Of a DNA stretch of 48,078 nt, positions 34,284 to 45,865 are shown piece by piece. Source of the DNA: a virus; IMG/VR virus record IMGVR_UViG_3300020196_000067, positions 1 to 48,078 of that record; one strand, 5' to 3'. The notes beneath the pieces were generated by a model. The model did not search any database. It saw only the letters and a list, made by a program, of their open reading frames with translations, and was not told the DNA's origin. A program made the position numbers and the translations under genes. Every line of letters starts with the position of its first letter. The first letter of the stretch is position 1.

Positions 34284-35396
34284 ATGGCAGTTAAGCCAGC
34301 AAAAGCAATTGCTGATCTACTTGCAAGAAAACAAATTCTTAAAGTAGATAAAGAAAACAATATTCTTTTTAAAGTTTCCGGGTCTTTAGGTTCTGGCGCT
34401 GTTAGTTCGTCATTACCGATTACAGCTTCATCGTTTTATGCACAAAATTCATCTTCAGTTGATAGTTTATTAACCGTACAAAATTTATTTATTAAAGATG
34501 AAAAAAGTTTTGTAAATATAAATCAACTAAGTAATGTGTCTGCATCGGATGCCCGTGAAGGTGAATATCTTGTTTATAGCGGCTCTAACTGGGTTCCTTC
34601 TTCTGTTCGCGGCGTAGGTATAACAAAAGAAACATACAATCGCGTAAGGTATAGTGTTTCTGGCACTTTTGATGATAACGAAACAATAGAGATACCTTTA
34701 CCTTTATCTTCTTCCATACGTGGTCCGTCTTTTACGGTTGAGTCTGTAAATCAAATAAATTTTACATTATTGATTCAAGAAACTCCTGTTTCTAATTGGA
34801 AAAACGATTTAGCTTCTGTTGAATTAAAAGTTTCAGGAAACTTACCGCAAATATATGCCGTTATTTCTGCGCCTTCTAAACCATATGCGTATAGTTTTAA
34901 CGCTGTAAACTTGAATCCAGATGTAGTCAATTCATCTATTATGTTAGGTGAATATACTACGTTGATTGTTGAAGATGATGCTTTTATATCTGGCGGTTTA
35001 TTTGTTAGTGCGTCTTCACCATTAAACAATATAGGAAATGTTAATTTATTATCGGGCACTTTTTATGATGTTGATAATGTTTTTACCTCAATAGATGCTC
35101 GTTTTTCGCAATTAGTTACTAACTTCAATAATTTACGCGAAGTGCAGATAGGAAATTTTGATATTTATGGCAATAAAATCGTTACATTAAATAATTTTAT
35201 TGCTGATGATATTGATTATTTGTCTGTAGATGTAATGGTTAAATACGGTGGAACAACACAATATGTAAATGACCTTATCAGTGTTCGTATGTCAGGCAGC
35301 GTAAACAATAAAATAGATGTTGAAATCAGCGCTCCTAGCGTAAGCAGTCAAGATTTTTATAGAATTATTGCAGTTAAAGAGTCCGGAAGTATATAA
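34284..35396 (+). CDS. Fibre protein with two IAVNE-type modules
   Basis: The 370-residue protein starts M-A-V-K-P-A-K-A-I-A-D-L-L-A-R-K-Q-I, with K-V-D next, an N-terminus shared in pattern with the 35438 product. It contains two copies of the recurring module. The first (about 115-215) has Y-N-R-V-R-Y, W-K-N-D-L-A-S-V and a Y-S-F-N-A-V-N end. The second (about 275-366) has F-N-N-L-R-E, Y-V-N-D-L-I-S-V and Y-R-I-I-A-V-K-E. The segment N-Q-L-S-N-V-S-A-S-D-A-R-E-G-E-Y near 75-90 resembles a common fibre repeat preceding a 'YxGSNWxP' turn. AAGGAAAC serves as ribosome site. Likely a short fibre or adaptor; the ligand is unknown. Confidence 0.83.
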   Translation: MAVKPAKAIADLLARKQILKVDKENNILFKVSGSLGSGAVSSSLPITASSFYAQNSSSVDSLLTVQNLFIKDEKSFVNINQLSNVSASDAREGEYLVYSGSNWVPSSVRGVGITKETYNRVRYSVSGTFDDNETIEIPLPLSSSIRGPSFTVESVNQINFTLLIQETPVSNWKNDLASVELKVSGNLPQIYAVISAPSKPYAYSFNAVNLNPDVVNSSIMLGEYTTLIVEDDAFISGGLFVSASSPLNNIGNVNLLSGTFYDVDNVFTSIDARFSQLVTNFNNLREVQIGNFDIYGNKIVTLNNFIADDIDYLSVDVMVKYGGTTQYVNDLISVRMSGSVNNKIDVEISAPSVSSQDFYRIIAVKESGSI

Positions 35397-35401
35397 ACAA
35401 A

Positions 35402-35411
35402 CTATTTATTA
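35402..35411 (+). promoter_or_regulatory. ACTATTTATTA motif before the 361-residue fibre gene
   Basis: The core CTATTTATTA ends 26 bases before the ATG at 35438, with an AAAAGGAGA ribosome site between. This is the most ordinary spacing of the four copies and would suit a promoter element. Confidence 0.5.
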
Positions 35412-35437
35412 AAAATTGCAAAAAGGAGATTAAATAA

Positions 35438-36523
35438 ATGGCAGTTAAACCAGTTAAAGTGTTAACAGATCTGCAAACAAATAAGCAGATTACAAAAGTA
35501 GATCGTAATGCATCTAATGCAGTATTATTTAACGTATCAGGTACAGTAGCAGGCGGTCATGTTAGTTCTTCCTTACCGTATACAGGCTCTGGACTTTTTA
35601 TTGATGGTAACGCTTTAATTAACGGTATATTAACTGTTAAGACTTATCACTCTATTGATGTAACTGCTTCTGTATTATATTTTAGCGGTTCTAGCAAATT
35701 TGGTAATACAGCAGATGACACACATCAATTTACAGGTAGCGTACTGGTAAATGGTTCATTTACAGCAGATTATTTAACAGCATCATTAGGTTTATATTCT
35801 GGCGGTCCTTCAGAATTATCTGGCGCTGTAACAGCAAGAAATGGATTAACCATTCTTGGTTCTGCTCTAGACGCTAGTGCCGTTCCTGTATCTGCTTCGG
35901 CATTAAATGTTACTACAACCGCTCTAGTAGGTTCTACTTTAACAGCAGTAGGTGGATTAACTTCATCAGCTGGATTAAATGTTGTTGGTTCTTCCGTTCT
36001 TGGTGGTGCTGTTACAGCAACAACTTCTGTATATTCGCCATTAATTGCTGCTACAAACGTAAAAGCTGTTACTAGTTCTGTTGCTGCACAAACTCCGTTT
36101 AGTAATTTAGCAGTAATTACCTCTTCACAAGCTGTTGGCCTAGCATCATATGATATTTATAGCATTGATCAAGCATTCCATGCTGTAGATACTGCTGTTT
36201 CAAATACATTTAATTCTTATAAACGTCTTCGTCATCAAGTTAGTGGCACATTTGATCCAAGCGGTGTACAATTAGTAGCGTTACCAACCGCTTCTTTAGG
36301 CGGTGCTGCCTTCCCAATTTCTTCTTTAGATTTCATTACGGTAGATGTAATGATTAAATTAGAAAGCGGCGATAACTGGATGAACGATGTTGTAGCGGTT
36401 GAGGCTTATGTAACAGGTTCATCGGGCAATGAGTATATTGAAATTGCTATTAATTCAGCAGATATTCCTTATGCTTATCGTTTAATAGCAGTTAATGAAG
36501 ATCCAACTAAATATGTGATATAA
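35438..36523 (+). CDS. Fibre protein with DDTHQFTGS and IAVNE modules
   Basis: The 361-residue protein starts M-A-V-K-P-V-K-V-L-T-D-L, with K-Q-I-T-K-V-D, paralogous to the N-terminus at 34284. Near residue 80-105 it has S-V-L-Y-F-S-G-S-S-K-F-G with D-D-T-H-Q-F-T-G-S, a fibre module also present in the 561-residue protein. A Ser/Thr/Ala/Val-rich shaft follows, then the recurring module at about 250-358 (Y-K-R-L-R-H, W-M-N-D-V-V-A-V, Y-R-L-I-A-V-N-E). AAAAGGAGA is an excellent ribosome site and a CTATTTATTA motif lies upstream. The end of the frame also holds the -10-like element of the resolvase gene. Probably a surface fibre. Confidence 0.85.
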   Translation: MAVKPVKVLTDLQTNKQITKVDRNASNAVLFNVSGTVAGGHVSSSLPYTGSGLFIDGNALINGILTVKTYHSIDVTASVLYFSGSSKFGNTADDTHQFTGSVLVNGSFTADYLTASLGLYSGGPSELSGAVTARNGLTILGSALDASAVPVSASALNVTTTALVGSTLTAVGGLTSSAGLNVVGSSVLGGAVTATTSVYSPLIAATNVKAVTSSVAAQTPFSNLAVITSSQAVGLASYDIYSIDQAFHAVDTAVSNTFNSYKRLRHQVSGTFDPSGVQLVALPTASLGGAAFPISSLDFITVDVMIKLESGDNWMNDVVAVEAYVTGSSGNEYIEIAINSADIPYAYRLIAVNEDPTKYVI

Positions 36524-36524
36524 T
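36516..36524 (+). promoter_or_regulatory. Extended -10 element at the resolvase start
   Basis: TGA-TATAAT overlaps the stop of the preceding fibre gene and ends nine bases before the resolvase ATG. The expected transcription start (about 36531) would give a leader of one or two bases. The -35 region is poor. No Shine-Dalgarno site is seen. Confidence 0.5.
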
Positions 36525-36532
36525 AATCACAT

Positions 36533-37054
36533 ATGATTCTTGGTTTAGACATTTCTACCTCTATAACCGGCTTAACCGTCCTTGATAATGCAGGGGCGGT
36601 TTTGCTTTTTGATATGGTTGACATGCGTTCTAAGAAATTTAAAAGCTTTTTTGATAAAGCAGAAGCTGTTGAACGGCGGCTGGCACAGTTAAAAACCACA
36701 TATAATATAGAAAAAATCTACATTGAGCAAAGCTTACAAGCATTTAGACCCGGATTAAGCAGTGCAAAAGTCATTTTAACACTCGGAAAGTTTAATGGAA
36801 TAGTTTCTTGGATATGTTTTAAGACTTTTGGTTTTGAACCACAGTATATAGGCGCGTCTACAGCAAGAAAATCTCTTGGAATCAAGATAGAACGTGGACA
36901 AAACGCTAAAGAAATAGTGTTAAAGCACGTAGAAATTGCTGAACCAACATTTAAATACGAAAAAACTCCAAAAGGCAATCCTGTTGCTGGTACTTATGAT
37001 CGTGCAGATAGTTATGTTATTGCAAAAAGTGGATTTTTGTTGTCTGATAAATAA
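36533..37054 (+). CDS. RuvC-type Holliday junction resolvase
   Basis: The 173-residue protein is a RuvC/RNase H-fold nuclease predicted to cleave branched DNA. The acidic tetrad is complete: D6 in G-L-D-I-S, E65 in Y-I-E-Q, and D156 and D159 in Y-D-R-A-D-S. In E. coli RuvC the residues are D7, E66, D138 and D141, so the first spacing and the D-x-x-D pair match. The middle has the expected G-K-F-N-G-I-V helix and a basic region (A-R-K-S-L-G-I-K). It would resolve recombination intermediates or trim branched DNA before packaging. It is an enzyme gene inside a fibre cluster, nine bases after a fibre gene, with no Shine-Dalgarno site and an extended -10 element immediately upstream, so it may be expressed separately from its neighbours. 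Confidence 0.9.
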   Translation: MILGLDISTSITGLTVLDNAGAVLLFDMVDMRSKKFKSFFDKAEAVERRLAQLKTTYNIEKIYIEQSLQAFRPGLSSAKVILTLGKFNGIVSWICFKTFGFEPQYIGASTARKSLGIKIERGQNAKEIVLKHVEIAEPTFKYEKTPKGNPVAGTYDRADSYVIAKSGFLLSDK

Positions 37055-37062
37055 ATAAAACA

Positions 37063-37072
37063 CTATTTATTA
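37063..37072 (+). promoter_or_regulatory. ACTATTTATTA motif before the 561-residue fibre gene
   Basis: The core CTATTTATTA lies between the resolvase stop and the ATG at 37092, followed by a CGGAGA ribosome site only five bases later. Initiation must occur very close to the motif if that ribosome site is to be kept in the RNA. Confidence 0.5.
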
Positions 37073-37091
37073 ACATCGGAGAACAATATAA

Positions 37092-38777
37092 ATGTCAATT
37101 TCATATCCTTCCATCATTATTGGTGGATTAACCTCTAACACTGGTTCTTTTAGCGGTTCATTTTATGGTAATTTAAGTGGCTCTGGTCTAACAACACAAA
37201 TAACTTCATCATTAATCTCTGGAAGTGAAGGATATTTTGAAGAATTATACATAAATGGTGTTCCTGTTGGAACGGGAGGTGGAATTTCTGCTATTTCTTC
37301 TTCCGATAACCTTACTGGTAGCGGTTTAGGTTCTGATCCTGTTAAATTATTACCAAACATTAGTTTAACTAGCGTAACTGCTAGCGTATCTGGCGCTGCG
37401 GCTCAATTTAACACATTAAATGTTCTTGGAACATTAACCGCTAACGAGCTTCATATAACATATGAAACGTCTTCTGTTCTTTATACTAGCGGATCAACAA
37501 AATTTGGTGATTCACTAGATGATACACATCAATTTACAGGTAGTTTATTTGTTTCAGGAAATATAACTGCTAATAATATTACAGCTTCTTATTTTAGTGG
37601 CACTTTTGTTGGTGATGGCAGTGGATTAACTAATATACCATCTGTAGATTTAAGTATCTATGTTACCACTTCTAGTTATTCTTCTTCAATAAATATCTTA
37701 ACAGCTTCCATAAGTTCATCATTTCTGCAAAGCGCTGTTTTAAATGATTACGTTACTACTAGCAGCTTTACAAGTTCAATAAATGACCTTACTGCTTCTA
37801 TAAGCTCTTCATTTTTGCAATTAGATGACTTAACTGCTTCAAACATTTCTAATTTTCAACAAGATGTTAGAGCGCAATTTAGTGCAGGCACTAATATAAC
37901 TATTAATAACGGTGTTATATCAGCGTCTGTATCTGGAGGCGGTATATCTTTTGTCTACACTACTGGAAGTATAACAGGCAGCGGGTTAATTGGTGAAGAA
38001 ATTAGACTAAAAGATACAGTTATTATAAATACATTAACTGCTAGCTTTATTAGTGCATCTTCGATTGCTGTAGATAATTCATTAATTGCTTTTAATACAA
38101 TTGATGCTGATGTTCTGCAAGTTAATCAAGAATCATCTTTAACTGGAACAACAGGAATTAGTGGTACAATTAGTTTGTTAGGTTATGCAACTTATAATGG
38201 CGTAGAACTAAATACTGCTGGCGGTACTACATTAGCAAGTTTGTATGCCTCTAATGGCGTTGCGCTTATATCTGGCACTTTAGGAGTAACTATCAACGCC
38301 TCTGGAGTTCTAGGCGCTGCTCCAATTAATATGTCTGCTAGTGCAGTTAACATCAGCGCTCCTGTAATAGCAAATTCATTTACTGGTGATGGAAGTGGAT
38401 TATATAATTTGCCTCCTGCTGGTTTATCACATATTCAAATACCGCTTGCGTATAATCAAACTACCACTAACACAGTTGATACTTTAGTAGGTGGTGGTAA
38501 AATAAATGGAACTTATTACATAACAAAAGCAGGTACATTTGAAGTTCTTGGTTATGTTGCTAATAGCGGAAGCGATACACTAGAAGTAGAATTATATAAT
38601 ATTTCAGACAGCATTTCTGAAGCTGTATTATCAATTTCTTCTTCTATTACTACTGCCGTTTCTGCTCCAATAAGCAGCAGCTTCGGTGGAATGCCAAAAA
38701 TATATGAAGTATATATTAGAAATTCTACAAGCACAGGAAATATAACATTATTATCAGCAAATATGTTGATTGATTAG
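37092..38777 (+). CDS. Tail fibre with mosaic shaft and beta-sandwich head
   Basis: The 561-residue protein has a Ser/Gly/Thr-rich shaft of common fibre modules: G-S-F-S-G-S-F-Y-G-N-L-S-G-S near the start, D-D-T-H-Q-F-T-G-S at about 144, two S-S-I-N-x-L-T-A-S-I-S-S-S-F-L-Q units at about 200-240, D-V-R-A-Q-F-S-A-G near 257, and G-S-G-L-I-G-E-E-I-R-L-K-D at about 296. Each is shared with another fibre in this window. The last ~115 residues (from about 447) form a distinct beta-sandwich with Y-Y-I-T-K-A-G-T-F-E-V-L-G-Y, likely the receptor-facing tip. CGGAGA is the ribosome site. It ends in TAG. Confidence 0.86.
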   Translation: MSISYPSIIIGGLTSNTGSFSGSFYGNLSGSGLTTQITSSLISGSEGYFEELYINGVPVGTGGGISAISSSDNLTGSGLGSDPVKLLPNISLTSVTASVSGAAAQFNTLNVLGTLTANELHITYETSSVLYTSGSTKFGDSLDDTHQFTGSLFVSGNITANNITASYFSGTFVGDGSGLTNIPSVDLSIYVTTSSYSSSINILTASISSSFLQSAVLNDYVTTSSFTSSINDLTASISSSFLQLDDLTASNISNFQQDVRAQFSAGTNITINNGVISASVSGGGISFVYTTGSITGSGLIGEEIRLKDTVIINTLTASFISASSIAVDNSLIAFNTIDADVLQVNQESSLTGTTGISGTISLLGYATYNGVELNTAGGTTLASLYASNGVALISGTLGVTINASGVLGAAPINMSASAVNISAPVIANSFTGDGSGLYNLPPAGLSHIQIPLAYNQTTTNTVDTLVGGGKINGTYYITKAGTFEVLGYVANSGSDTLEVELYNISDSISEAVLSISSSITTAVSAPISSSFGGMPKIYEVYIRNSTSTGNITLLSANMLID

Positions 38778-38790
38778 GAGATAAAATAAG

Positions 38791-39795
38791 ATGGCTCTTT
38801 CTAGAACGTGGTATACCGATGCAAACATAGATGTAGCAGAAAGCGGTTCTCAAGAAAAACACTTAAAAAGTGTTGCTTGGGGGTTAAAAGCACTATTAAC
38901 GGGCCAAATTACAGGTAGCCAAGGTTCTACTGGCGCTGCTCCAACAGGTTCATATTGGACGTGTGTTTCTAGTAGTGATGGTACTACTGCTGACACAAGT
39001 GATAATTGGGGTTCTTCTTATGATGCTTCTAAACTTGTTAGAGCTACAAATTCCAATCCTCACTCATGGATTGTATTAAAATCACCAAATAACATTGCAA
39101 GCGATGGTCCGTATTATTTATTGTTTGACATGGATAGCTCTTCAGGCGGCAGCATGACAGTTAGATATTCTAAAAATAATTTTACTGGCGGTACAAATAC
39201 TACTTCTCCAACTTCGGTAGGATCATTAGAAATTAATCAATATATTCAATTTTATGCAGATAGCGACACTTTACTTCCTGTATATTATAGCATTACAAGA
39301 GATGCAAACGGTGGCTTTTACTTTATTGCTGTTAAACAATCGACCGGCGCTATTACTTACTTTAGTCTAGTCGGATTAGATGACATGCAAAATAATGATT
39401 CTTGGAGAGTGTGGAGTTCTTTTAGTTCTTTCAGTAATACTAATAGCTTAGCCGGTTCTGCAATAGCTTCTATAAAGCTAATTGGCAGAACGTATAATAG
39501 TGCAGCTGTTAGTAGTACGTATGATAGTAATTGTTTTATAAACATGGTTAGCGTAGCAGGATCTGCTTTATACAGCGTTAATAGCTTTGACGCAAATACT
39601 GGAAATTATTTTACTTTCCCATTTTTTATTTATTCTAGTAATACCGGTTTGGGAGGATATAGAGGTCGTTTACCGGACGCACAATTTATTGGAACAGGAA
39701 AGAATACAGGCGACGTTGTACCGTCTGTTGGCAATATAGAACAATGTTTAATTGGTAATTTACTATTACCATTCGGCGTATCAACAGGAGCATAA
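38791..39795 (+). CDS. Virion surface protein (SWIVLKSP type)
   Basis: The 334-residue protein begins S-R-T-W-Y-T-D-A-N-I and contains L-K-A-L-L-T-G-Q-I-T-G, then S-Y-W-T-C-V-S-S-S-D-G-T, W-G-S-S-Y-D-A-S-K-L-V-R-A, S-W-I-V-L-K-S-P and Y-Y-L-L-F-D-M-D-S-S. I recall this pattern from structural proteins of large phages that carry a long beta-rich domain, but I know no assigned role. AGGAGATAAAA gives a clear ribosome site. It is followed five bases later by an 80-residue gene, and the two are probably co-expressed. Confidence 0.82.
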   Translation: MALSRTWYTDANIDVAESGSQEKHLKSVAWGLKALLTGQITGSQGSTGAAPTGSYWTCVSSSDGTTADTSDNWGSSYDASKLVRATNSNPHSWIVLKSPNNIASDGPYYLLFDMDSSSGGSMTVRYSKNNFTGGTNTTSPTSVGSLEINQYIQFYADSDTLLPVYYSITRDANGGFYFIAVKQSTGAITYFSLVGLDDMQNNDSWRVWSSFSSFSNTNSLAGSAIASIKLIGRTYNSAAVSSTYDSNCFINMVSVAGSALYSVNSFDANTGNYFTFPFFIYSSNTGLGGYRGRLPDAQFIGTGKNTGDVVPSVGNIEQCLIGNLLLPFGVSTGA

Positions 39796-39800
39796 AATAA

Positions 39801-40043
39801 ATGGCTACATTTGATATTCAGTCAAATATACCTGTTGGTGATAAAAAGACTGTTCTTGGACAATTAGGAAAAAGTATTTTGCCAACCAACGAGCCAGTTA
39901 TCTATAGAATGAGAGCATATAACACAAATATATCTCAATATGTTTTTTGGAGTAGCGGCGGTAGTCCAGATGCAACCGGTATTAAAAGTGGTTATAACGT
40001 TGCACATTTAACAAAAATTGTTGTAGTTAGTAAGAGCGTTTAA
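39801..40043 (+). CDS. Small virion-associated protein (unknown)
   Basis: The 80-residue product has no motif I recognise. It has short beta-like stretches (Y-V-F-W-S-S-G-G-S-P-D and K-I-V-V-V-S-K-S-V at the C-terminus) and no signal peptide or membrane segment. It sits between two virion genes with five- and eleven-base gaps and no separate promoter. Position suggests a small structural or accessory virion protein. The ATG follows the previous stop closely with no strong ribosome site of its own. Confidence 0.7.
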   Translation: MATFDIQSNIPVGDKKTVLGQLGKSILPTNEPVIYRMRAYNTNISQYVFWSSGGSPDATGIKSGYNVAHLTKIVVVSKSV

Positions 40044-40054
40044 GGAAAAATAAT

Positions 40055-40783
40055 ATGCCAACAAGAATTAGTGGAAAAGTATACGGTGACTTAACAGGTT
40101 CTATATTTGAACCTCAAGTTAAATCAATAGCAAATGTTGATAGCGGTACTCTTCCTATTGCTCACGGTGGCACTGGTTTAAATCTTCCCGGTGCATCTGG
40201 CAGCGCTCTTGTTAGCGATGGAACATCGTTAGTTTATGCAGTTATTGGTGGGGGAGGCGGTGGTGTGACGGCTGGAGAAGTCAGTGGAGCGATTGATCAA
40301 TTAACTAGCAGTCTTAGTTCGTCATATGTGCAAAATACAATATTAAACGATTATGCGTTAAAAAGTGGCACTATATTCACGGGCGCTGTTACAGCTTCTA
40401 GCGGCGTAAGTGCTAGCTTAATTCGTTTTCCTGATGGTTCTGAATTAACATCTTCAACTGATCTTGGTGGCGGTTTATCATCTGTTTATACTGATGGAAA
40501 CATTACAGGTAGTGGATTAATTGGAGATAAAATTGGATTAAAAGATAATATAACTCTAACAAGTGTGACAGCTAGTTTATTTGGTACTTCTTCTTATTCA
40601 TCACAGGCACTTTCTGCATCTTATGCGTCAACAGTTTCTGGACAGTTAAGGTTAATAACTGGTGCAGAACGAGCTACCATAACACCTACTGTTGGTTTAA
40701 TGATATATCAAACTGATACAAGTGGTAGTGATACAGATGGTGTCTATGTTTATAAGTCAATTGGTTGGGTACAAATGATATAG
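40055..40783 (+). CDS. Tail fibre protein (collar-type repeats, W-motif C-terminus)
   Basis: The 242-residue protein opens with G-K-V-Y-G-D-L-T-G-S. It has I-A-H-G-G-T-G-L, the classic fibre repeat start, then a Gly-rich G-G-G-G-G-V turn, A-S-L-I-R-F-P-D-G-S-E-L-T and G-S-G-L-I-G-D-K-I-G-L-K-D. The last block is also found in the 561-residue fibre. It ends G-V-Y-V-Y-K-S-I-G-W-V-Q-M, a C-terminal W motif shared with other fibres here. AAGGAAAAA is the ribosome site. A short fibre or fibre-tip subunit is likely. Confidence 0.83.
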   Translation: MPTRISGKVYGDLTGSIFEPQVKSIANVDSGTLPIAHGGTGLNLPGASGSALVSDGTSLVYAVIGGGGGGVTAGEVSGAIDQLTSSLSSSYVQNTILNDYALKSGTIFTGAVTASSGVSASLIRFPDGSELTSSTDLGGGLSSVYTDGNITGSGLIGDKIGLKDNITLTSVTASLFGTSSYSSQALSASYASTVSGQLRLITGAERATITPTVGLMIYQTDTSGSDTDGVYVYKSIGWVQMI

Positions 40784-40792
40784 AGATAAATT

Positions 40793-43057
40793 ATGTCTAA
40801 TGGAATAAAAATAAATTCTGATAATGATATATGTTTTGAAGTTAGTGACAACACACTGACTATTACCTCTAATTATATAAGCTCTTCTAATTTTATAGGA
40901 AATATTACAGATGGCGTGTATCGTAATATAGATTACGTAACAGGCGGAACTGTTATATTAGATAAACTATATAATAAAATTGTTGTTAGTGCCTCTAATT
41001 CAACAAATATTTATTTTCCTAATCCAATACTGTTTAATAATTATGAATTTTTTATTAAAAGAATGGATAATTCTAATAATACTGTTACTTTAATACCAAA
41101 ATATGGTATTTATAAAGACTCTGCTTTAACCGGCTCTAACCAATCAATTGATGCAGCAATAAATGCAGCGGGTAATAAAATTTTATTTAGTGGCGCGAAT
41201 CTGTCAACCCAAATTATTTCTTCCTCTACTCCAAATCTTAAATTATTGTTACATATGGAAAATATTAGTGGCACAAATGTATTTGTTGACAGTTCGCCAT
41301 ATAAAAGAAAAGGGCTGTATCCACAACAATATCCTACAGATTTAGAAATAAATAATGAACAATATAAGTTTGGATCCAGTAGTCTTAAAGCTTTTAGGGG
41401 TGGTGTTTATTTTGATGAATATGGTGATATAAGTTTTACAACCGGCGATTTTACTTTAGAATTTTGGATGTATCCTTTATCTACAAACAGTTTTACTAAT
41501 GGAGGATACATATTTTCTACTCTAGATCCATTACAAGGTTCTAATCCCGGCACTCATTTGCAAGCCAATAAGCCGGTTATTTCATTAGCATATGGAAGAT
41601 TATATTGGACAGGATATTCGGCCCCAACTATCAGTTCAAGTGTTGTAAATATAAATGAATGGCATCACGTAGCCTTTAGTAGAACTGGTAGTATTTTAAA
41701 TATGTTTATAGATGGAAATCTAATAAATAGTGCTAGTTCAACTAATGATTATAATTTTAGTAGTATTTACGTGGGCGGAAATCAAAATGCGCCTTCATTT
41801 AACGGGTATATAGATGACTTTAGAATAATAAAAAATATTTGTTTATATACTGCTTCTTTTTCTCCTCCTACCGAATCTTTTTCTAATAATGAATTGTTTT
41901 TAACAAACAATACAATCACAAATCCTACAGGAACATACGTTTATTTATACAAAAAAGTATCAAATAATTGGATAATAGAAAATGTGTTTAGTAGTTCTTA
42001 TACTGCTAGCTGGCACATAGCAACAAGTGAAAATTTTGGTTATAGCGTAGATATAAACTCATTAGGTAATAAAGTATTTATTGGAGCGCATGGAGACTAT
42101 AAAACGGTAGGTGGAAGCGTATATGTTTATAACAGTTCCTCTAACGGCTGGTCCCTAGAAACAATATTAACAAGCGATTCAGCTAGTAATTTTAATGACA
42201 AATTTGGCTATATAGTAAAATGTAATTCTGAAGGAGATAAAATATTTATTTCTGCTATTAATGATGATTATTCGAATACTTATAATTATAATGATCCAAA
42301 TTATATAAATGATAAATGTGGAACAGTTTATGTTTTTTCTAGTTCATCTATTGGTTGGGTACAAGAGAATATTATAAAAATAGATTTAAGAAAAGGTTAT
42401 TCTTTTGGATTATCAATAGATACTGATATTTCAGGAAGTAAATTATTGGTTGGTCGTAATGAGTCGTTTTATGGAACTCCCGCGTATGGTGCAGCTTATC
42501 TTTTTAATTCTGAATCTGCTAGTTGGACACTAACAAAAATTTTCGGTGAACCAATTCAATATTCGTATCATTATGGCAAACGAGTTAAGATAAGCCATGA
42601 TGGTTCTACAATAGCTAATTTAGCTGATCCATACTGGAATCAGGGGCGCGTCTATGTTTATAAATATGTAAACTCTTCTTGGGTTAATGAGTTTACTTAT
42701 TCTTTTAATAAAGGGCATGGTCTGCCACAAGTATATTTAGATTTTGATAATAACAATAGATTATACATCAATAATGTTGACAATAATTATATTTATTCAA
42801 GTTCTTCTTTTGGATGGAACTTATATAATAGCTTTACCAGTGACACTGGTTCAAATATGGTGGTAAATTATTCAGGAACTAATGTTATTTATAACACCTT
42901 GGCAACTAATCGATTGTCAGTATATAATTTAGATTTTAGTGTTTACGATTATTTAAGTTCTAGTTCTGATATTGTTAGTAATAATATTGTATTATCTTCT
43001 GGCACAGGATCATATAATTATATAAGCAACGGAGCAGGATGGTATAAAATAGGATAA
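40793..43057 (+). CDS. Adhesin-like fibre: split tip domain enclosing propeller and LamG
   Basis: The 754-residue protein starts M-S-N-G-I-K-I-N. Residues 1-105 match the first part of a small fibre domain seen whole in the 121-residue neighbour (I-V-V-S-A-S, I-Y-F-P-N, T-V-T-L-I-P). A first propeller strand pair follows at 106-140 (A-A-G-N-K-I-L-F-S-G). A LamG domain at about 149-362 has F-T-L-E-F-W-M, W-H-H-V-A-F-S-R, M-F-I-D-G-N and Y-I-D-D-F-R-I-I. Propeller repeats run from about 378 to 725 (F-G-Y-S-V-D-I-N-S-L-G-N-K-V-F-I-G-A, V-Y-V-Y-N-S-S-S-N-G-W). The small domain ends with Y-I-S-N-G-A-G-W-Y-K-I-G. Probably a host-surface binding fibre; the ligand is unknown. No strong Shine-Dalgarno site is present beyond a weak GAGAT. 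Confidence 0.85.
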   Translation: MSNGIKINSDNDICFEVSDNTLTITSNYISSSNFIGNITDGVYRNIDYVTGGTVILDKLYNKIVVSASNSTNIYFPNPILFNNYEFFIKRMDNSNNTVTLIPKYGIYKDSALTGSNQSIDAAINAAGNKILFSGANLSTQIISSSTPNLKLLLHMENISGTNVFVDSSPYKRKGLYPQQYPTDLEINNEQYKFGSSSLKAFRGGVYFDEYGDISFTTGDFTLEFWMYPLSTNSFTNGGYIFSTLDPLQGSNPGTHLQANKPVISLAYGRLYWTGYSAPTISSSVVNINEWHHVAFSRTGSILNMFIDGNLINSASSTNDYNFSSIYVGGNQNAPSFNGYIDDFRIIKNICLYTASFSPPTESFSNNELFLTNNTITNPTGTYVYLYKKVSNNWIIENVFSSSYTASWHIATSENFGYSVDINSLGNKVFIGAHGDYKTVGGSVYVYNSSSNGWSLETILTSDSASNFNDKFGYIVKCNSEGDKIFISAINDDYSNTYNYNDPNYINDKCGTVYVFSSSSIGWVQENIIKIDLRKGYSFGLSIDTDISGSKLLVGRNESFYGTPAYGAAYLFNSESASWTLTKIFGEPIQYSYHYGKRVKISHDGSTIANLADPYWNQGRVYVYKYVNSSWVNEFTYSFNKGHGLPQVYLDFDNNNRLYINNVDNNYIYSSSSFGWNLYNSFTSDTGSNMVVNYSGTNVIYNTLATNRLSVYNLDFSVYDYLSSSSDIVSNNIVLSSGTGSYNYISNGAGWYKIG

Positions 43058-43063
43058 ACTTTT

Positions 43064-43429
43064 ATGTCTGATGGAATTTTATATGGTAATAATATAATAT
43101 TTTTGCAATTAAGTGGCAATACGTGTTTTCAATTTTCATCTTCTAGTTTAAGCTGCTCAAACTATAACACGCGAATAGGAAATTTTTCTTCTTGCAAAAC
43201 GGTATATCAAGATACTATATTAACAAATTATGATTATAAAATATTAGTTGATACATCACTAAATAATGTAGTTATAAATTTTCCTTCCGCTATAGAAAAT
43301 TTAAGTAAACAATATGTAATTAATATGATTTCTGGTAGTAATAATATGTTGATCAACTCGCTTCCTCCTGTTACAAGCAGTGGAACGGTTTATGTTTTTA
43401 GTGATGGAGAAAATTGGTTACCTTTATAG
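43064..43429 (+). CDS. Minimal fibre-tip domain protein
   Basis: The 121-residue protein appears to be the uninterrupted version of the domain that is split in both flanking genes. It starts M-S-D-G-I-L-Y. It contains K-I-L-V-D-T-S, then V-V-I-N-F-P-S-A, Q-Y-V-I-N-M-I-S-G-S-N-N-M-L-I-N-S, and ends Y-V-F-S-D-G-E-N-W-L-P-L. This order ('hhVdts...hxhPsa...hIxxhsgSNNhxI...SDGxxW') is a frequent C-terminal tip domain of phage fibres. It carries no LamG or propeller insert. It starts six bases after the previous stop and ends with TAG. It could be a fibre cap or a stand-alone short tip. Confidence 0.82.
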   Translation: MSDGILYGNNIIFLQLSGNTCFQFSSSSLSCSNYNTRIGNFSSCKTVYQDTILTNYDYKILVDTSLNNVVINFPSAIENLSKQYVINMISGSNNMLINSLPPVTSSGTVYVFSDGENWLPL

Positions 43430-43438
43430 GAATAAAAA

Positions 43439-45811
43439 ATGGCTAATGGTATTAAGTATAATTTTGTAAGTCGAAGCATAGATATTACAAAAAATAATAA
43501 TAAAACTTTTACTGCTGATTCAGCTTCTATTAGTTGTTCATTGCTTTTAGGAAATAATAATATTTCTACTCCAATTTATTTTTTAACTTCTAGTGAAAAT
43601 TTACAAAATTATCAAAATATTCATAAATTTATTATTAATAATAATATACAAAATATAAATTTATATAATCCATCGTTAAAAAATGGAAAGGAAATAATTT
43701 TATTTAACAAAGGAAATAGCGTTACTTTAAATACAAATAAATATTTTAATGAATTACAGATATTAACCGGTTCTATAGAAGTGGTAAATTCTGGTGATTA
43801 TTTTGGACAATCAGTTAGCGCAAATGATAATTTTTCTAAATTAATAGTTGGTTCACAATATGATGAAAAAGTATCTTTGCCAATGGTCACTGCTAATGCT
43901 TTATCTTTATTATTAAATATGAATGATGTCAGCGGATCTACAGTTTTTGTTGACAGTTCTCCAAATAATTTTTCCATTACTAGAACTGGTAATACAGTAT
44001 TAACTTCTTCAGAAAGTAAATTTGGAGGATATAGTGCATTTTTTGATGGGAATGGAGATGCCTTAACGATTATAAATGGAAATACTATAGCTTTTGGAAA
44101 TTCAGATTTTACAATAGAAACTTGGGTTTACAATAAAGGAAACGGACAAGTTAATATTTTTGAAACAAGAAATGGATCCGAAGGATCATATCCAGTATTA
44201 GGAATCGGAAGTGATGCTAAATTTTATTGGTATTTAAACAATAATTATGTAATTGTTTCTGATGTTTCTGAATTAAACACTTGGGTTCATGTTGCTGTTA
44301 GCAGAAAAAATAACGTAACAAAAATGTTTTTAAACGGTACACAATCTGGAAATTCTTATAATGATAATAATAGTTATGTTTTTCCAAGATTGTTGATAGG
44401 TACTTATAATTTTGGTGCTGCCGGATCATTCTATGGTTATTTAGATGATTTTAGAATTCTTAAAGGCGTTGCGTTATATACTTCTAGTTTTTTACCTCCA
44501 ACGGCGTCATTTACTTCTAATGATGCAGAAAATTTTTATTCTTATTATAATTCCGGACCACAAACTGGTTTAGCTTACATTTTTAATTCGTCTTCTAATG
44601 GTTATGCTCTGGAACAAGTATTAAGTGGGGCATATGCTACGGATGAATCAGATGAATTTGGCTATAGTGTATCTATGAATTCAGCTGGTGATAAAGTTGC
44701 TATTGGCGCAAGATATGATGAAAGCGCAAATTCTTCAGAAGGATTAGCGTATATTTTCACTAGTGGTTCTAATGGATGGTTTAATGAAGCAATATTAAAA
44801 GGCTCCCGTGTTGAAACGTCAGATAATTTCGGCACATGTTTAAAAATAAATAATAGTGGTAATTTATTAGCTGTTGGAAGTCCAAATGATGAGCAATCGT
44901 TTACAGTTGCATCTGCTGGTTTGGTATATATTTTTAGAAGTTCTTCTATTGGTTGGAACGAAGAGGCAATATTAAATGCATCTAATTCGACAGCCGGTGG
45001 CGGACCAGATTATTTTGGTTCATCATTAGATTTTAACGAAGAAGCAAACAGACTTTTTGTTGGAGCGCCAGCAGATGAAACTGCTGAAGCATCGGCATAT
45101 TTTGGCGCGGGTTTGGTTTATGTTTTTAATAGTAGTTCTGGTGGGGTCGGTTGGATTTCCGCAGGATATATATCCTCTGATATTTCTCTGAATTCTAAAG
45201 TATTAAATTTTGGCAATCAAGTTTCTTGCGATGGAACAGGAAATAAAGTACTAATTTCCTCTAATAAAACTAACGGCTGGACGGATTATCCCACTACATT
45301 ATGTTATTTATATACCCTTAGATCGGGACAATGGGTTTTGGAACAGCGTTTTAGCGGAAGTAAAGTAAATGGTGATGATACTCAAAACAATCTTGTAAAA
45401 TTAAACTATAGTGGTAATATGGCGTTTATAGGTTCTTATAATTCAGAAATTTCTGAATTATTGAATTCTACCGGTAATAATTCATCTGGTTTAGTATACA
45501 ATTTTGCTAGTGGTTCTAGCGGCTGGGTATTAAATACTATTATTTATGGTTCATGTGCATATGAAACTAATGATTACTTTGGCTCTAATTTATTTTGTAA
45601 TAAAGAAGGTAATAAATTATTAGTTGGCGCAATTAATGATGAAATTACTTCAAGCATTACCAGTAATGGAGGTTTAACTTATATTTTTGAAGTTGAAAAT
45701 AATTATCCAAATTCAGCGGATTATTATATTGACAATAATTTATATTATATATTGCCTACCAGTTCTTCAGCCACATTTATAAGCTATAGGAATTCATGGT
45801 ATAAATTTTAG
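43439..45811 (+). CDS. Adhesin-like fibre: split tip domain enclosing propeller and LamG (paralogue)
   Basis: The 790-residue protein is a divergent paralogue of the 754-residue one. Residues 1-106 are the first part of the tip domain (M-A-N-G-I-K-Y-N, then F-I-I-N-N-N and I-I-L-F-N-K-G-N-S-V-T-L). Residues 112-141 are the first part of an FG-GAP-like propeller blade (Y-F-G-Q-S-V-S-A-N-D). LamG lies at about 151-362 (F-T-I-E-T-W-V, W-V-H-V-A-V-S-R, M-F-L-N-G, Y-L-D-D-F-R-I-L). Propeller blades continue to about 755 (F-G-Y-S-V-S-M-N-S-A-G-D-K-V-A-I-G-A; G-L-A-Y-I-F). The C-terminus F-I-S-Y-R-N-S-W-Y-K-F closes the tip domain. AGGAATAAAA is the ribosome site. This is the last gene of the fibre locus. 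Confidence 0.86.
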   Translation: MANGIKYNFVSRSIDITKNNNKTFTADSASISCSLLLGNNNISTPIYFLTSSENLQNYQNIHKFIINNNIQNINLYNPSLKNGKEIILFNKGNSVTLNTNKYFNELQILTGSIEVVNSGDYFGQSVSANDNFSKLIVGSQYDEKVSLPMVTANALSLLLNMNDVSGSTVFVDSSPNNFSITRTGNTVLTSSESKFGGYSAFFDGNGDALTIINGNTIAFGNSDFTIETWVYNKGNGQVNIFETRNGSEGSYPVLGIGSDAKFYWYLNNNYVIVSDVSELNTWVHVAVSRKNNVTKMFLNGTQSGNSYNDNNSYVFPRLLIGTYNFGAAGSFYGYLDDFRILKGVALYTSSFLPPTASFTSNDAENFYSYYNSGPQTGLAYIFNSSSNGYALEQVLSGAYATDESDEFGYSVSMNSAGDKVAIGARYDESANSSEGLAYIFTSGSNGWFNEAILKGSRVETSDNFGTCLKINNSGNLLAVGSPNDEQSFTVASAGLVYIFRSSSIGWNEEAILNASNSTAGGGPDYFGSSLDFNEEANRLFVGAPADETAEASAYFGAGLVYVFNSSSGGVGWISAGYISSDISLNSKVLNFGNQVSCDGTGNKVLISSNKTNGWTDYPTTLCYLYTLRSGQWVLEQRFSGSKVNGDDTQNNLVKLNYSGNMAFIGSYNSEISELLNSTGNNSSGLVYNFASGSSGWVLNTIIYGSCAYETNDYFGSNLFCNKEGNKLLVGAINDEITSSITSNGGLTYIFEVENNYPNSADYYIDNNLYYILPTSSSATFISYRNSWYKF

Positions 45812-45815
45812 TTTC

Positions 45816-45844
45816 TAGACAGCCGACATGATAAATGCTATAGT
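45816..45844 (+). promoter_or_regulatory. Sigma70-like promoter with extended -10, primase gene
   Basis: TAGACA (45816-45821), a 17-base spacer, then TG-C-TATAGT (-10 at 45839-45844). Each hexamer matches the sigma70 consensus at five of six positions, and the TGn extension is present. The expected start of transcription is about 45851, two bases before the primase ATG. Confidence 0.7.
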
Positions 45845-45865
45845 GTCTATACATGTCAGACACTA
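45841..45865 (+). promoter_or_regulatory. Inverted repeat with the primase start codon in its loop
   Basis: TAGTGTCT (45841-45848) and AGACACTA (45858-45865) are perfect 8-base inverted repeats. The ATG (45853-45855) is in the nine-base loop. As DNA it overlaps the -10 element and could be an operator. As RNA it could form only if transcription starts upstream of the left arm. Confidence 0.65.

Follow-up and report, generated by a model that had tools for sequence, protein, structure and literature searches.

Two neighboring genes of an uncultured tailed phage probably encode accessory adhesins that are paralogs of each other and are nested at three levels, in which a LamG domain lies in a propeller and the propeller in a small XD1-like base domain. 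The genes were found in a window of 48,078 nt (the whole stretch of DNA that was analyzed, an IMG/VR virus record), which also carries a baseplate wedge gene at position 1227. The two proteins, of 754 and 790 residues, are encoded on either side of a gene for a 121-residue protein. The three genes were confirmed in the region given by the earlier note, at 40793-43057, 43064-43429 and 43439-45811, all on the + strand; the gaps between the genes are 6 and 9 bases. Judging by the kinds of domain and by their place among fibre-like genes, the proteins may serve as phage receptor-binding proteins. The features of the region are as follows.

37028..45853, + strand: putative accessory fibre cassette of seven genes in the RuvC-primase interval
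40793..43057, + strand: gene of the 754-residue putative nested adhesin (open reading frame, Pfam)
40793..41104, + strand: residues 1-104, N-terminal extension and N-part of the outer (XD1-like) domain
41111..41212, + strand: residues 107-140, strand 4 of blade 7 and strands 1-2 of blade 1
41234..41890, + strand: residues 148-366, LamG
41924..42934, + strand: residues 378-714, strands 3-4 of blade 1 and blades 2-7
42947..43054, + strand: residues 719-754, C-part of the outer domain
43064..43429, + strand: gene of the 121-residue protein, outer domain without interruption
43355-43384, + strand: residues 98-107 of the 121-residue protein, loop matching the insertion site
43439..45811, + strand: gene of the 790-residue putative nested adhesin (open reading frame, Pfam)
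43439..43741, + strand: residues 1-101, N-terminal extension and divergent N-part of the outer domain
43742..43879, + strand: residues 102-147, strand 4 of blade 7 (by alignment) and front half of blade 1
43895..44527, + strand: residues 153-363, LamG
44552..45703, + strand: residues 372-755, back half of blade 1 and blades 2-7
45704..45808, + strand: residues 756-790, C-part of the outer domain

LamG in the First Blade of the Propeller

Both long proteins were matched by the Pfam LamG model PF13385 (E 2.6e-17 and 2e-15; 63.8 and 57.7 bits; cut-off 27.6) and by the FG-GAP_2 model PF14312, which gave 78.3 bits for the 790-residue protein and 28 bits for the 754-residue protein (cut-off 23). At 43787-43870, directly ahead of LamG in the 790 gene, only positions 13-38 of the PF14312 model were matched. 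Neither PF01839 (integrin-type FG-GAP) nor a DxDxDG-like calcium motif was found in the window proteins, and the Pfam search of the 121-residue protein found no domain.

A blade HMM was built from free-standing phage propellers (L001, L017 and L002), with the window sequences left out. When the 790-residue protein was searched with it, a front half-blade was detected at residues 116-146 (model 5-35; 26.3 bits as a fragment) and a back half-blade at residues 372-390 (model 35-53; 19.5 bits as a fragment), whereas either fragment reached at most 10.6 bits in 3000 shuffles. The joined halves scored 47.8 bits, six more blades were matched besides the split one, and LamG (residues 155-358) scored 213 bits. 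Because both halves and six further blades were matched, the protein was read as seven blades, one of which is split by about 225 residues that hold LamG. As judged from the amino acid sequence, LamG is inserted in blade 1 of this protein between strands 2 and 3, which bears out the FG-GAP-like propeller with LamG in its first blade that the earlier note had described.

In the 754-residue protein the half-blades scored 6.5 and 2.2 bits alone and 10.5 bits when joined, which is not significant, as shuffles reached 10.7 bits. The two long proteins are 31% identical across LamG and the propeller, in keeping with the deep divergence noticed before. When the 754-residue protein was aligned with LamG-free propellers, a gap opened, unguided, exactly at LamG; alignments with many LamG rows drew propellers onto LamG and were excluded from folding. 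The AlphaFold model, built from five sequences only, has the strand order of a seven-bladed propeller, and LamG emerges from blade 1 between strands 129-134 and 382-389, as had been predicted. In our assignment of the blades, strand 107-113 is strand 4 of blade 7, strands 118-123 and 129-134 are strands 1 and 2 of blade 1, and strands 382-389 and 392-400 are its strands 3 and 4; six blades follow, and the final one (686-712) has three strands only. Homology to the 790-residue protein, the gap at LamG and the modeled strand order thus support the same plan, more eroded, in the 754-residue protein. According to the blade HMM matches of the 790-residue protein and the strand order of the 754 model, seven blades are closed by a strand from ahead of blade 1. 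A Foldseek search with the 754 model gave matches at the level of the propeller and none to the whole design.

Free-standing FG-GAP_2 propellers of phages and bacteria (L001, L017, L002 and the genome loci L214-L293) have the same blade repeat and mostly seven blades, but they have neither LamG within a blade nor an XD1-like enclosure. Seven was the commonest blade count (66 of the 109 blade proteins in the gathered loci), and LamG occurred in three of the 109, namely inside the propeller in both window proteins and after the last blade in L287. A viral scan for a junction from LamG to a blade returned LamG ends only, none continuing into a blade, and the first scan of genome_contigs found no relatives. 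Separately, FG-GAP_2-like blades were observed in arrays in viral ORFs of great length in L003 (1-8703) and L005 (1077-5123); the 2900-residue ORF of L003 has about 33 blades.

Profile Evidence for a Split Outer Domain

The N-termini of the 754-, 121- and 790-residue proteins were similar in all pairs (z 4.4-5.7 over shuffles), so that the N-terminal parts of both long proteins match the start of the 121-residue protein, as the earlier note had it. Its further claim, that both C-terminal ends match the end of the small protein, held for the 754-residue protein (z 4.7) but not in the pairwise comparison for the 790-residue protein (z 0.2, not significant); the two long proteins gave z 2.6 with each other.

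The N- and C-parts were similar in pattern to a common phage domain. With a consensus for this domain, its family was retrieved from 78 viral loci, and 51 of the domains were aligned. In 71 of 92 family proteins, no more than 10 residues lie between the end of the domain and the C-terminus, and 18 of the 92 are complete small proteins no longer than 180 residues, as is the 121-residue protein. In loci L136-L213, a widespread phage domain (LP..IKK..NTVTIDP..ETIDGATSY..SDGtnW) was observed below the cut-off of Pfam PF07880 (T4 gp9/gp10 N-terminal), and it could represent an uncurated branch of that family.

The 121-residue protein scored 20.4 bits against the family profile, and the best of 2000 shuffles scored 13.0. 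For HHalign, a composite of the three window proteins, with the long ones entered as N-part plus C-part, was compared with the 51 aligned phage domains. It gave a score of 48.1 (Prob 95%, P 3e-8), whereas 60 column-shuffled versions scored at most 14.2 and the reversed version 13.5. These matches uphold the description of the 121-residue protein as the uninterrupted outer domain. Without it, the 754 and 790 parts still scored 36.9, and the match spanned the whole family. The true C-parts lifted this score from about 30 to 36.9 and extended the match to the end of the family; when they were swapped for five propeller 38-mers, the score was 30.4-31.3 and the match halted at family column 69-81. 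The C-parts alone aligned to the last 18 columns of the family only. Since the full profile match needs the true C-parts, the N- and C-parts appear to be complementary pieces of one domain, and at the profile level the split of the outer domain around the propeller is real. By itself, the 790 copy is too divergent for a significant match to the family profile, and this, together with the chance-level similarity of its C-terminus to the 121-residue protein, counts against a nested outer domain.

These results also bear on an alternative with two levels only, in which LamG lies in the propeller and each end of the long proteins forms a small domain of its own, one following the other along the chain. 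The C-terminal SDGxxW-like ending would then be a common short fibre ending, alike by chance or as an independent module. Such an arrangement would agree with the weak pairwise C-terminal similarity (121/790), with the short reach of the C-parts alone and with the low confidence of both outer parts in the 754 model (pLDDT <45), but we consider it unlikely, because the C-parts occupy exactly the family columns left by the N-parts and raise the score where control segments do not, the N-part alone is without the last two strands of the modeled domain, and in most family proteins the ending belongs to the domain itself, at the C-terminus.

No further split copies of the outer domain were found among the gathered loci, and a direct search of viral_contigs with the three window proteins found no relatives. 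GenBank phages gave nothing useful for the 121-residue protein or for the N-plus-C composite of the 754-residue protein, and sequence searches of the PDB found nothing.

Fold and Likely Identity of the Outer Domain

The AlphaFold model of the 121-residue protein (28 sequences) had a mean pLDDT of 82.9, and from residue 41 onward its block means were 77-96. Loop 98-107 of this model, between strands 95-97 and 108-113, corresponds to the cut in the long proteins, and the C-parts would therefore provide the last two strands of the domain. Packing of the N- and C-parts against each other in the long proteins would follow this model. In the 754 model, both outer-domain parts had pLDDT <45; this absence of confidence in either part counts against a three-level fold.

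Three of five family members matched PF07880, the T4 gp9/gp10-like N-terminal family (E 1.1e-4 to 4.2e-3; 17.6-22.8 bits, below the cut-off of 25), and none of the three window proteins matched it directly. Family members also matched PHROGs whose annotations are baseplate protein and proximal tail fibre. The best PDB match of the 121 model was tailspike 24qj (E 2.8e-3, probability 1.00), followed by capsid spike 9ny6 (E 0.046) and by weak fold matches to the N-terminal part of CBA120 TSP4 (7rfv, E 0.17) and to a StcE domain (4dny, E 0.29). TSP4 XD1, T4 gp9, T4 gp10 and StcE 4DNY are listed as one fold, which is trimeric in TSP4 and gp9, is apparently a spacer between interaction modules and also serves glycan binding in StcE and CpaA (PMC8825819). 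On the strength of these PF07880, PHROG and PDB matches, which are weak, the outer domain is more likely an XD1-type assembly or spacer domain nearer the virion than a tip domain; no membership is claimed. The absence of a PF07880 match for the 121-residue protein itself and the weakness of the TSP4 and StcE matches count against this XD1-like base.

The earlier note had called the outer domain a fibre-tip domain. This label was rejected, as the relatives match the gp9/gp10 family and PHROGs of baseplate and proximal fibre, and the 121 model resembles domains of a virion spike and a tailspike hub.

Intertwined trimers are frequent in phage spikes, and the C-part of one subunit could complete the N-part of its neighbor, with nesting in the sequence but not within the chain. 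Even with the trimeric XD1 domains of T4 gp9 and CBA120 TSP4 (PMC8825819) in its favor, such a domain swap is quite improbable, given that a closed propeller has its two ends side by side and would let both parts of one chain meet without a swap, and that the stand-alone 121-residue protein is predicted confidently as a single chain.

Genome Surroundings of the Fibre Block

The primase was used to gather 46 related phage contigs. RuvC and primase are neighbors in all 46 (in 39 the two genes overlap by 9-15 bases, and in the other 7 the distance does not exceed 1,109 bases), and in the window they are 8.8 kb apart. In six relatives with 85-91% primase identity, the DNA similarity to the window ends at or before 37027, within the final codons of RuvC, and restarts at 45854, which is the primase start. 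The block between them (37028-45853) contains seven fibre-like genes on the same strand. Its 561-residue gene has segments in common with fibre genes that lie beyond the block or belong to relatives, so the block is built in part from fibre modules of the phage group itself. The reading that fits best is an accessory adhesin cassette located at a precise site. An assembly artefact, with an 8.8-kb fibre block of another phage wrongly joined to the contig, would account for the absence of the block from 46/46 related loci and of close relatives of the three proteins from viral_contigs, but it is highly improbable, since both flanking genes are intact with their own starts and stops, a segment of the 561-residue gene is 57% identical to the 361-residue gene just outside and segments recur in the relatives' fibre genes, the GC content of the block resembles its surroundings, and even a wrong join would leave the three proteins, with their nesting, real.

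Several other features were observed in this region and at the equivalent site of relatives. The fibre genes of 370, 361, 561 and 242 residues (34284-38777 and 40055-40783) share segments in differing order with 36-57% identity, a sign of module shuffling. At the RuvC-primase site of L094 (9217-10035), a 272-residue ORF reads like a GIY-YIG endonuclease (TGIYCIKNLINGKLYIGS), and in L098 (8670-10031) the RuvC frame is apparently broken by small ORFs, one with the look of an HNH endonuclease. A promoter-like site (TAGACA, 17 nt, TATAGT, with a preceding TG) is located where the cassette ends (45816-45853), immediately upstream of the start of primase. Promoter and terminator scans of the region gave matches at chance level, and amid these the site may be nothing.

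Comparison With Known Systems

All three kinds of domain and both types of insertion are already known, and the three-level combination, in two divergent copies beside an intact outer domain, was not found elsewhere in the material searched. The earlier note knew of no described phage adhesin family with this design; this holds for the design as a whole, of which no account was found in the literature searched, but each type of insertion has a precedent. Insertion into propellers is known from the integrin alpha-I domain, so the design is not wholly new.

Bacterial sialidases such as that of Vibrio cholerae likewise carry a concanavalin-like lectin domain inserted in a propeller; the latter is a six-bladed catalytic propeller, in a secreted enzyme with no outer enclosing domain. 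LamG is also shared with structural proteins of cyanophages and other phages, of which hundreds of phage records match, but in the records examined no propeller surrounds it.

The integrin alpha subunit has a seven-bladed FG-GAP propeller with an inserted ligand-binding alpha-I (von Willebrand A) domain (PMC3192720, PMC12422189), and its blade 7 is completed by a strand from ahead of blade 1 (PMC3192720). The window proteins are alike in both respects, having a ligand-type domain inserted in a seven-bladed propeller and a blade 7 closed by an earlier strand. However, integrins are animal receptors in which the von Willebrand A domain is inserted between blades 2 and 3, whereas LamG is inserted within blade 1. 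Moreover, the integrin propeller is itself unenclosed and has repeats of the PF01839 type, while the window propellers are enclosed, of the FG-GAP_2 type and without a DxDxDG calcium motif.

The N-terminal family of T4 gp9/gp10 (PF07880) and the CBA120 TSP4 XD1 domain are small beta-domains of the virion, as the outer domain would be; relatives of the outer domain match PF07880 weakly, and the 121 model weakly matches TSP4 and StcE. In gp9/gp10 and TSP4 the XD1 domain is uninterrupted and in series, but in the long window proteins the outer domain is split.

Proposed Architecture and Its Meaning

The propeller and LamG folds have adjacent ends and are suited to insertion into loops. In the architecture proposed here, the outer domain, a small beta-domain that is most likely T4 gp9/gp10-like (XD1), would join the protein to the virion and would probably trimerize. 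A seven-bladed FG-GAP_2-type propeller sits in its loop ahead of the last two strands, as seen at the profile level, and LamG sits in blade 1, in the loop that connects strands 2 and 3, as read from sequence in the 790-residue protein and as supported in the 754-residue protein. The ends of the propeller would exit via the 3-4 loop of blade 7, and LamG via the 2-3 loop of blade 1. In blades of four strands, the 3-4 and 2-3 loops are found on opposite faces; in the integrin propeller, likewise, the FG-GAP motif is on the other side from calcium loops 1-2 and 3-4 (PMC3192720). Because the exits use a 3-4 loop and a 2-3 loop, the blade topology would place the outer domain and LamG on opposite faces of the propeller, and base, propeller and LamG would then form a stack in which every added domain is further out.

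LamG, and perhaps the propeller face too, would bind glycans of the host surface, and with its two long proteins the phage would have two receptor specificities on a single type of base. The 121-residue protein may be a headless partner, a cap or an uninterrupted ancestral form of the long proteins. Tentatively, the region could then represent a modular docking base, borne on a cassette, with an assembly domain that is present empty (121 residues) and in two copies loaded at the same loop with a lectin-carrying propeller. If this reading is true, phages make new adhesins by placing entire domains, whose ends are adjacent, within loops and not by adding them end to end, and such adhesins move as an accessory cassette.

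The usual description of a phage adhesin is a series of domains. A chain with three levels of nesting, beside an empty outer domain, would reveal that adhesins can also grow by a second route, loop insertion, which would explain how large heads are added without disturbing the attachment to the virion. It would also extend to phages a design known from integrins, that of a ligand domain within an FG-GAP propeller.
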